Source of the DNA: Methanobacteriota archaeon
GTDB lineage: Archaea > Thermoplasmatota > Poseidoniia > Poseidoniales > Thalassarchaeaceae
NCBI GenBank assembly: GCA_002718995.2
Contig: PBGL02000011.1
Location: forward strand, 1 to 64,000
Reading direction: 5' to 3'
DNA length: 64,000 nucleotides
Shown: in pieces, positions 1 through 3,741 of the stretch
How positions within the stretch are numbered: the first letter of the stretch is position 1
How the letters are laid out: each line of letters opens with the position of its first letter
Translations under genes and position numbers: made by a program
Notes under the pieces: generated by a model
The model's database searches: none
Told to the model about the DNA's origin: nothing
Seen by the model: the letters and a program-made list of their open reading frames with translations, nothing else

Positions 1-1286
1 GTCGAGAAGGTTGGACGCGAGTGCCCGTTCTTGGCGGTCATACCAATCAAATGACACCCTGCAGGAACGCGCGGCCTCCAGACAGAGACGTCTTGTTCTG
101 CGCCGGAACCACTGTCGTTCCATACCTCATCGTACTCACTTATGGGGACGAATTCGAACTTCTCCTCCGCTGGTATCGACTCAGTTGAGTGGATTTTATG
201 CTCCGAGTGGATGGTGAAATCTTTTCGTTCGGCCAGTGTGTATCCGCCGTCTGAAAAGACACGTATGCTCCAATCGCCTTCAGCCCACCCCCCGTTTGAT
301 AACGAAACGTTGTTCACGTCGATGTCCCTGATGTATTTCCATCGCTGGTTATGCTCTCCGTGATCCTGATCAGGTGCGCCCGTTGGATAGATGCCGACCC
401 AAGCATCATTGTGGTTTGGGGGGTTGTTGAGTTTGAAGCGGACGGGTTTACCAGACACGGCTTCCAGCACCTGAATAGATTCATCTGAAGCAAACGTGGA
501 GGAACGGTCGATGTTGAGGTGCTGTTGAGTTTGAGTCGTAGCGTCGGGCGGGTGATAGACTGTTGGCGCCGGATGCTTACCGCCGGGTGCACCCGGATTG
601 CCCCAGCCTTCGACATTTTCCCATACGCCCTCACGCGGGGGAACACCGATCTTTCCACCGGTATGCGCAGCATAGAGGACCCCGACTTTTGAGATGATCA
701 TCCACTTGTTCCACTCCGGGCGTTGATGGTCCGTTCCGCAGTCTTGTAAGGCGATGAAAAGCTCCGGGTTCTGAGTGTGCTGGTAATGGCCAGCGATGGT
801 ACCCCAGTGCCTGTTTTCATGCTCGCCTGACTCGAACACGTAGGTTCCGTTCACTTCTGTACTTCCGGCTCCTGAAACGGTTACGCTCGGGGGCATGGAT
901 GCCGTGATCCTGTACACTGCAGGCCCGCGCCAGCCCTCACCGACATCGTTCCACAATCCACTGTGTTGGCCGTATAGTTGCATTCTGTTCTCGCTACCTC
1001 CGTGGTTGTTCGGCTCGCCACGGGCCCAGCTCGTGTATGTCCAAGGTCGTCCGTCACTCCAATACCAGTGGTCAGCACCAGGCCCATTGCCCTCGCCTTT
1101 CCTGATTCCACCTATCCATACAGATCTCTCGCCGGCGATTCGAGCCACCTGTTCGTTCTCCTCGGCGTTGGTGATCGAGGCGAGATGACCCCCCATCTTC
1201 ATGGCACGATGGTTGTGCTCGTCCCATGTCATAGCCTCCGGAACGAACCTGTACTCGCTGCTCATAAAATCCGCTTCATTTGACAT
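1..1286 (-). CDS. C-type-lectin-domain protein, C-terminus cut by window edge
   Basis: Translating the minus strand from the ATG at 1286 gives an open frame of about 428 codons running off the left edge, so the ORF track missed it. Residues about 5-120 form a C-type lectin domain: GGHLASITNAEEN, then VWIGG, WSDGRPWTYTSW, the carbohydrate-type EPN motif and a WND calcium-site motif. A second region (about residues 275-350, containing DAWVGIYPTGAPD and DGGYTL) looks like another beta-rich domain that I cannot name. There is no signal peptide at this start. Arginine codons include many CGN triplets, whereas neighbouring genes mostly use AGG/AGA, which hints at acquisition by transfer. The fold is clear; sugar binding is inferred from EPN/WND. 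The true C-terminus is unseen. Confidence 0.75.
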   Translation of the reverse strand, partial: MSNEADFMSSEYRFVPEAMTWDEHNHRAMKMGGHLASITNAEENEQVARIAGERSVWIGGIRKGEGNGPGADHWYWSDGRPWTYTSWARGEPNNHGGSENRMQLYGQHSGLWNDVGEGWRGPAVYRITASMPPSVTVSGAGSTEVNGTYVFESGEHENRHWGTIAGHYQHTQNPELFIALQDCGTDHQRPEWNKWMIISKVGVLYAAHTGGKIGVPPREGVWENVEGWGNPGAPGGKHPAPTVYHPPDATTQTQQHLNIDRSSTFASDESIQVLEAVSGKPVRFKLNNPPNHNDAWVGIYPTGAPDQDHGEHNQRWKYIRDIDVNNVSLSNGGWAEGDWSIRVFSDGGYTLAERKDFTIHSEHKIHSTESIPAEEKFEFVPISEYDEVWNDSGSGAEQDVSVWRPRVPAGCHLIGMTAKNGHSRPTFS

Positions 1287-1316: not shown

Positions 1317-2069
1317 TTAGCCAAAATAACTCACAACCTGGGCTGAAATCATTATTGCGGCCATTATCAAGAACATTGGTCGAAGCATGGAGTATCCATA
1401 TCTCAGAACATACCCGGGAGCTAGGAAACCCCCAACCATATTTGCCAAAGCAAATGGTACTGCAACTTCATAGTTGACAGATGCGGCCATCGCAAAAACC
1501 GCGAAAGAGCCAATGTTGCCCCCGAAATTCAGGACCCTCCCCGTGGCAGCCGCCCTATCCATCCCAAAGCCCGCACCCTTGATGTAACCAGCCATCAGCA
1601 TGCTACCAGTCCCTGGTCCGAGAAATCCCTCATAGAACCCCAGGCCAGCACCCATGCCCACAGTAACTGGAATTATCTTATCTTCCTCAATCTCTTCCTC
1701 CTTTCCAAACTGAGGATTGAACAAGACATAGAGGAACAACGCCGATAGAACAATGATCACAATTCCAAGAACTGCGTCAGCGCTAATCGAAAGCACGACA
1801 CTTGCCCCGATTATAGAAAATAGAACCATCAATGAACATCCAATAAAGGCCGCCTTTCTAGGAACAATTCCACTTTGGAGATATTTCACACTCGCAATTG
1901 CTGCAGCTGCAGCCGATGCAAATTTGTTCGTCCCCAATGCAACGTGCGGAGGTAAGCCCGCGCTCAGCATCGCAGGGAGGCGAAGCAGCCCGCCGCCCCC
2001 TACTGCGCTATCGACAAATCCTGCGAACACCCCAACCAGCATCAGCAGCAGGAATACTTCCGAATCCAC
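1317..2069 (-). CDS. TSUP (TauE/SafE) family membrane transporter
   Basis: This 250-residue integral membrane protein belongs to the TSUP/TauE-SafE family of sulfite, sulfonate or sulfoacetate exporters. The N-terminal motif GVFAGFVDSAVGGGGLL is the family's glycine-rich repeat, and a second copy-like segment (GFYEGFLGPGTGSML) sits in the second half, as expected for this two-repeat fold. About seven to eight hydrophobic helices cover the protein, with one short charged loop near residue 130. The start is GTG. It lies 25 bp downstream of CTP synthase on the same strand and is probably co-transcribed. The substrate cannot be read from sequence; family membership is clear. Confidence 0.88.
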   Translation of the reverse strand: MDSEVFLLLMLVGVFAGFVDSAVGGGGLLRLPAMLSAGLPPHVALGTNKFASAAAAAIASVKYLQSGIVPRKAAFIGCSLMVLFSIIGASVVLSISADAVLGIVIIVLSALFLYVLFNPQFGKEEEIEEDKIIPVTVGMGAGLGFYEGFLGPGTGSMLMAGYIKGAGFGMDRAAATGRVLNFGGNIGSFAVFAMAASVNYEVAVPFALANMVGGFLAPGYVLRYGYSMLRPMFLIMAAIMISAQVVSYFG

Positions 2070-2094: not shown

Positions 2095-3741
2095 TCATAC
2101 TTCTCGCCCGGTCGCAGCCATCAGCAGGCCTAGGAATGGGGGACTGGGGCGGTAGGGGCGGGACTTGAACTCTGGATGGTACTGCGTCCCGACGAAGTAC
2201 GGGTGCCCCTCGAGCTCCATTATCTCACAGCGCTGCCCGGTCTCGTCCTTGCCAACATACTTCAGCCCGGCATCCTCTATCTTCTCAATCAGCTCGGGAT
2301 TCACCTCATATCGGTGCCTATGCCGCTCGTCCACGTGCTCGGAACCCCCATACAAGCGCCTCATCTTGCAGTCCTCCACTAGGAAGGGGGTCGGCTTGGT
2401 CCCCAGGCGCATGGTGCCGCCCATGTGGGTCTTCGAGATCTCGGGCATGAAAACCACAGCTGGGTTCGGGGAGTCCTCGTCGAACTCGGTGGAGTTTGCG
2501 CCATCTAGGCCTAGCACATTGCGGCAGAACTCTATGGTCGCGATCTGCAACCCGAGGCAGACGCCGAGATATGGCACATTGTTAGTCCGGGCATAGTTCG
2601 CAGCTGCGATCTTGCCCTCGACCCCACGACTGCCGAAACCACCGGGGACCAATATTCCGTCTGCGGCGCGAAGGACATCCCATGCCTCAGCGTGATTCTC
2701 TGTGACGTCATTGGGATCAAGGTCAGTAGACTCGATCCAGTCTATGACAAGCTTGCGGTCCACCGCGAAGGCACTGTGTTGCAGTGCCTTGATGACCGAT
2801 AGATATGAGTCGGAAAGTCCTGTGTACTTCCCTACCATAGCGATGTTTACCTCCTCCTCAAGCTGGTCAACCTTGTCTGCCATTGCCCTCCAATCGTCCA
2901 GTAGGGGCAGGGAATCGGGAACTTCGAAACCAAGATGACTCGAGACCTTCATCAATACAGATTGCTCATAGAGTGAGATGGGGATCTGGTAGAGGTTAGA
3001 AACGTCATGAGCCGAGACGACCGCATCCGTCCCGACGTGACAGAATGCAGCCAGCTTCGCTCGAGTCTCATCCTCAAGGGGCTTCTCTGAGCGACAGACG
3101 AGGATATCGGGAATTATCCCTAGGCCCCTGAGCTCCTTCACAGTGTGCTGGGTAGGCTTTGTCTTTTGTTCCCCTACCGGGCCCATAACTGGAACGAGGC
3201 TGACATGCACGAAACAGACATTTTCCTGACCCACTCTGAACTGAAACTGTCGTAGGGCCTCGATGAACGGAGCACTCTCGATGTCACCAACCGTGCCTCC
3301 CAACTCGATGATGCATGCGTCTGGCGTATCATCAGAACCATCGGCCGGAACGTGAGCGACCCGCTCGATCCAGTCCTGTATCTCGTTTGTAATGTGAGGC
3401 ACCACTTGGACCGTCTTACCGAGGTAATCGCCCCTACGTTCCTTCTCGATGACATTGGCATACACCTTACCTGTGGTGATATTGTTATCACGAGTCAGAG
3501 AAACATCGAGGAACCGCTCGTAGTTGCCGAGGTCGAGATCGACTTCCCCTCCGTCGTCTAGGACGAAAACCTCTCCGTGTTCGAATGGAGACATCGTGCC
3601 CGCATCACTGTTAAGATAGGGATCTATCTTGACCGAAGTAAGCCGTAATCCAGCCGATTTTAGCAGAACCCCGATACTGGAAGCGGTGATTCCCTTGCCC
3701 AGTCCAGAGAGGACTCCACCGGTGACTACGACATACTTCAT
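2095..3741 (-). CDS. pyrG: CTP synthase
   Basis: CTP synthase makes CTP from UTP, ATP and glutamine in the cytoplasm, the last step of pyrimidine nucleotide synthesis. The 548-residue length is normal. The N-terminal synthetase domain opens with [17 protein letters not shown] and carries the [16 protein letters not shown] and [11 protein letters not shown] blocks. The C-terminal class I glutamine amidotransferase domain has the nucleophile region GVCLGLQ (about residue 393) and the HPEF catalytic His-Glu near residue 525. The ATG at 3741 gives the canonical N-terminus. It heads a probable two-gene unit with the TSUP transporter. Confidence 0.98.

Follow-up and report, generated by a model that had tools for sequence, protein, structure and literature searches.

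A mosaic lectin-module gene of Poseidoniales archaea that probably encodes a membrane-anchored recognition protein

Introduction

The closest described relatives of the protein studied here are the mannose-receptor-type carbohydrate-recognition domains of Pfam family PF00059, which its C-type lectin domain (CTLD) joins above the curated cut-off and with a complete EPN/WND calcium site 2. Conserved disulfide cysteines mark the canonical animal CTLDs, not the PF00059 family overall; the Poseidoniales domain differs in having neither these cysteines nor a signal peptide, and in being set in shuffled archaeal proteins. The Vps62/DUF946-type beta-prism family (PF06101) is likewise matched above the gathering score by intact Poseidoniales relatives, although here it forms one module of a larger mosaic and the copy under study is cut by the contig end. 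The SKICH domain of NDP52 offers the best PDB fold for a repeated module of the protein, a likeness that is structural only and statistically weak, whereas the Poseidoniales module lies below the Pfam SKICH cut-off and is possibly just a generic Ig-like sandwich.

In other archaea CTLDs are reported as proteins diversified by diversity-generating retroelements (DGRs) (PMC4372165). They resemble the present family in using the CTLD as a variable recognition module and differ in mechanism: no reverse transcriptase was found in 10 Poseidoniales genomes, and the family exchanges modules instead of undergoing targeted hypermutation. No description of a Poseidoniales lectin-module family was found in the titles and abstracts that open-access literature searches on the group with lectins and eukaryotic-like domains returned. 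What is new is thus the mosaic family and its shuffling; the lectin domain itself is of a known kind, and function and location are what we infer.

Results

A lectin gene cut by the contig edge

The window, a stretch of 64,000 nucleotides, begins at base 1 of its contig (C19) in a genome (G000) of 1.48 Mb that is 86% complete. At this edge a frame opens with an ATG at position 1286 and runs without a stop for 428 codons to the window edge; since the window starts where the contig does, the gene was cut by the assembly and not by the window alone. The sequence to the left, which the initial annotation wished to see, does not exist on C19, and the remainder of the gene very probably lies on another contig, C23. 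The features of the visible part and its neighbours are the following.

3..1286 (-): 5' part of the mosaic lectin-module gene, 428 aa, running off the contig end
906..1262 (-): C-type lectin domain, aa 9-127, cysteine-free; Pfam PF00059, E=5.2e-10
1008..1016 (-): EPN motif (E91, P92, N93) of the mannose-type Ca2+ site 2; EPN in 25/25 Poseidoniales CTLDs
990..992 (-): E99, Ca2+ site-2 ligand position
945..953 (-): WND motif (W112, N113, D114) of Ca2+ site 2; in 24/25 homologues, the remaining one being truncated
558..890 (-): VSGAG module, aa 133-243; unmatched in Pfam and the PDB
210..476 (-): SKICH-like Ig-fold module 1, aa 271-359; C23 has two further copies
3..161 (-): front end of the Vps62-like module, aa 376-428, truncated where the contig ends; intact relatives match PF06101 here above the cut-off
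1317..2069 (-): neighbouring gene, presumably a TauE/SafE-type permease; sister species G007 likewise has it next to its lectin gene
2095..3741 (-): neighbouring gene, presumably CTP synthase PyrG, used as housekeeping yardstick

The reading of this frame as a C-type lectin domain with EPN and WND sugar-site motifs, proposed from the bare sequence, was borne out: Lectin_C (PF00059) matches residues 18-115 and scores 40.5 bits, well over its gathering score of 22.6, the PDB sequence matches are mannose-receptor-type CTLDs, and all Ca2+/sugar-site residues (E91, N93, E99, N113, D114) are present. The disulfide cysteines of canonical animal CTLDs were looked for in this domain and are absent; Cys183 and Cys411, the only cysteines of the 428-aa ORF, both lie outside it, and the 25 Poseidoniales domains average 0.16 Cys per CTLD. 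No signal peptide is visible in the frame, as had also been remarked of its start.

Among the modules, only the SKICH-like one was predicted with confidence (AF2 pLDDT mostly >90). Its top fold in a Foldseek comparison against the PDB was the NDP52 SKICH domain (probability 1.00, TM 0.57 on the target, weak E of 0.013), with fibronectin-like designs scoring close behind, and Pfam SKICH (PF17751) stayed below its curated cut-off (E 0.004-0.013), giving no match for A2 members. Structure prediction of the VSGAG part yielded a poor model. PF06101 was matched above its gathering score in the intact relatives L035, L036, L088, L091, L092 and L099; the truncated Vps62-like copy of the window alone gave no Pfam match, and NCBIfam profiles gave no match.

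The two neighbours carry presumptive names, assigned from the general character of their sequences and not from profile searches. The initial annotation had pointed to CGN arginine codons that set the lectin gene apart; the difference is real (a CGN share of 0.64 vs 0.27 +/- 0.15 in 49 neighbours) but not unique, as PyrG reaches 0.78, the highest of the 49, so that an unusual choice of arginine codons is not by itself a sign of a foreign gene here. The GC content is also raised (0.556 vs 0.508 +/- 0.024 in neighbours), and in most relatives tested the family gene is likewise GC-richer than its surroundings. The TauE-type permease itself occurs in only 3/16 genomes of the genus, thus the accessory region may exceed the lectin gene. 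No native empty site between TauE and Grx could be demonstrated: of the other genomes in the genus only G012 has TauE, and there too contigs end beside both genes.

The missing half of the gene

Within the same genome, further matches to the window protein were found only on contig C23.

G000:C23:2-1615 (+): C-terminal part, very probable continuation of the gene; intact homologues join both parts

This piece, which takes up the opening 1,615 bases of C23, comprises the end of the Vps62-like module, then a SKICH-like module, a Cys-containing loop enclosed by four membrane helices, and a final SKICH-like module; structure prediction of the four-helix part with its loop gave a pLDDT of 64.5 and no significant fold. 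Intact single ORFs, from both MAGs and single cells, link the lectin or its neighbours to this membrane half: L035 (971 aa, L035:9627-12542), L036 (1,095 aa) and L091 (940 aa, from a single cell). The module order in intact relatives is lectin, VSGAG, SKICH-like, Vps62, SKICH-like, four helices around a loop predicted to lie outside, and SKICH-like. When both contig ends were matched to the L035 translation, about 86 residues were missing between them. In G007, which has the same locus at 97% protein identity, PyrG, TauE and the lectin gene share one contig and the C-terminal half lies beside Grx, NADK and ThrRS on another, the same arrangement as in C19 and C23, and both G007 contigs also end inside the lectin-module gene. 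The intact homologues and the G007 arrangement make the join likely, though not proven; C19 and C23 very probably carry the two ends of one gene, as judged from homologues and not from a spanning contig. The full-length protein would have roughly 1,050 residues, the window holding its front half. Of its modules, at least seven in number, the lectin domain comes first, and it is the only one that the initial annotation picked up.

A patchy family with exchanged modules

Close orthologues throughout the Poseidoniales, which the initial annotation had named as counter-evidence to its reading, do not occur: the CTLD was found in 32/319 genomes (~10%), spread over both families of the order. Using module names and borders defined here by local similarity, more than 30 ORFs were found to be built in varying orders from about a dozen modules (CTLD, VSGAG, SKICH-like, Vps62, fascin-type, EF-hand, two or four helices, loop, and several unnamed). 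The window gene has CTLD, VSGAG, SKICH-like and Vps62 modules, all shared with this family. The SKICH-like module was confined to this order among 390 genomes sampled across the phylum; a distant one also lies at G000:C1:3384-3671, in a 585-aa ORF of the same genome (E 1.8e-16), with comparable distant copies in other genomes of the order.

Four loci (L038, L042, L043 and L108) have the same ABC-ATPase gene at a distance of 52 bp and nevertheless differ in module order. The single SKICH-like module of L099 corresponds in its front part to the first copy of L100 (86-100%) and in its rear part to the second (83-97%), as expected from a crossover between repeats that deleted the helices. Across genera, the block from VSGAG to Vps62 has 90.7% DNA identity over 902 bp between the window and G070, compared with 68.0% for PyrG, and in G070 fascin-type repeats replace the lectin at the front end; the VSGAG part is 90% identical over 418 bp to that of G052 (PyrG 69%). 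These values support a horizontal exchange of module blocks between Poseidoniales genera, and taken together the comparisons demonstrate that species have exchanged modules and that recombination has rearranged them. No operon partner is conserved across lineages, each of which has its own site.

Several loci deserve separate mention. The L099 contig (PBUF01000008.1), whose deposited label is Gammaproteobacteria RS465, holds the archaeal family gene and beside it 2.75 kb that are 99.5% identical to the Marine Group II contig L100, and is most likely misbinned. At L100:4647-6744 the family gene is split, relative to L099, into two overlapping ORFs, which reflects a copy in decay or else an error of sequencing. 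A stable sub-lineage (L039, L040, L093 and L097) occupies a single conserved site, with a GcvT-like gene about 60 bp away, and combines EF-hand, ILVS, CTLD and SKICH-like modules without the four-helix module.

Discussion

Function and location

We consider that this is probably an accessory gene of Poseidoniales (Marine Group II) and encodes a mosaic recognition protein anchored in the membrane, of which the window holds the N-terminal part. A beta-rich chain (CTLD, VSGAG, SKICH-like, Vps62-like) leads into the four-helix membrane module with its Cys-containing loop and on to the last SKICH-like module. The CTLD would bind a mannose-type glycan through Ca2+; the mannose-type site is kept in all homologues that reach it, which makes Ca2+-dependent glycan binding the likeliest activity. 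From what is known of their families, the Vps62-like (beta-prism) and SKICH-like modules may add membrane or protein contacts, and module swapping would alter what is recognised.

Homologues consistently keep K/R-rich stretches ahead of TM1, in the TM2-TM3 connection and behind TM4, which predicts that both protein ends lie inside and the loop outside. Lectin-first members have no N-terminal signal, and several family members have neither helix nor signal. The lack of a signal peptide and of CTLD cysteines, along with the positive-inside topology, points to a cytoplasmic placement, in which the recognition modules might, more tentatively, be coupled through the helices to the outside loop. The intact Ca2+ site fits seawater better than the low-calcium cytoplasm, which argues for the outside; rapid turnover of modules, most often met on cell surfaces, also counts against cytoplasmic exposure. 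That these genes form a modular intracellular recognition system is a minority possibility, in which a tethered lectin with eukaryote-like SKICH, Vps62, fascin-type and EF-hand modules would be diversified by repeat recombination and inter-genus exchange; its logic would be comparable to that of polymorphic recognition families elsewhere.

The Ca2+ site and the module turnover lend some credit to a surface adhesin or decoy, whose modules would reach the outside by non-classical export or inverted topology and vary under pressure from grazers or viruses. The conserved, complete Ca2+ site, the rapid module swapping and the patchy presence would all suit it, but the positive-inside pattern puts the N-terminus in, the signal-less lectin-first members and those with neither helix nor signal are at odds with it, the CTLD lacks the usual disulfide cysteines, and no contractile-injection sheath gene was found in 11 genomes, so that we hold it to be a real but minority possibility. 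Delivery by contractile injection was rejected on that same absence.

An intracellular conflict protein for defence or self-recognition, whose swappable modules would sense a component of an invader and whose four-helix module would act on the membrane, appears improbable. Its appeal lies in an N-terminus that varies and resembles a sensor, set on a membrane module that is more constant, and in a gene that is accessory and horizontally moved; against this, PADLOC gave only one weak match (E 0.003), for which reason membership of a known defence family was rejected, PHROGs gave no convincing match, and neither viral relatives nor a partner gene conserved across lineages were found. A viral origin was also rejected, no relative being present in IMG/VR scans or phage records.

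Origin

In a scan of named genomes, 24 loci were found at >=50% identity, all of Poseidoniales type, the one under a gammaproteobacterial label (L099) included, and the next matches were bacterial, at <=40% identity; among the close homologues are those of the single-cell genomes AG-422-I22, AG-404-A19 and AH-287-M04. In lectin-domain scores, homologues reach at least 171 bits, the best bacterial domain 73 and the best animal one 62. The 25 Poseidoniales CTLDs form one clade with a support of 100/100, and animal CTLDs are no closer to it than bacterial ones, in a tree of few columns with seven animal domains and no protist sequences. Given the same locus in the sister species, the single-cell homologues and the single clade, the lectin-module gene is, on phylogenetic and positional grounds, native to Poseidoniales. 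In another bin, a 2,803-aa CTLD-bearing ORF (L048:664-9075, G110:C51) has an N-terminus resembling a signal peptide and, judged by eye, a Bacteroidota-like sequence; it is probably a contamination.

The animal- or protist-like character seen by the initial annotation finds no support as a sign of recent descent, while an ancient eukaryotic source is conceivable, and of the transfer that it left open the part that stands is movement between Poseidoniales genera. A recent acquisition from an animal or protist is very unlikely: fascin, Vps62, SKICH-like and EF-hand modules do have a eukaryotic flavour, and GC and CGN use are raised, but the single clade and the gap in scores do not support it and the homologues span two families of the order. 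That a foreign fragment was joined to the contig end by assembly or binning is scarcely credible; the gene does sit at a contig end with odd composition, but the identical junction in the separately assembled G007 already refutes it, and the single-cell homologues speak against it as well. A DGR target, suggested by the CTLD fold and by diversification, can be set aside almost entirely, as 10 genomes held no reverse transcriptase (positive controls worked) and the variation consists of exchange of whole modules.

Implications

The abundant, uncultured archaea of Marine Group II recognise surfaces, particles or viruses in ways that are largely unexplored; a patchy family of shuffled recognition proteins provides a concrete target for studying them. 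Module shuffling may be part of the reason that metagenome assemblies break at these loci, and the family shows how genes are remodelled by module recombination among close relatives.
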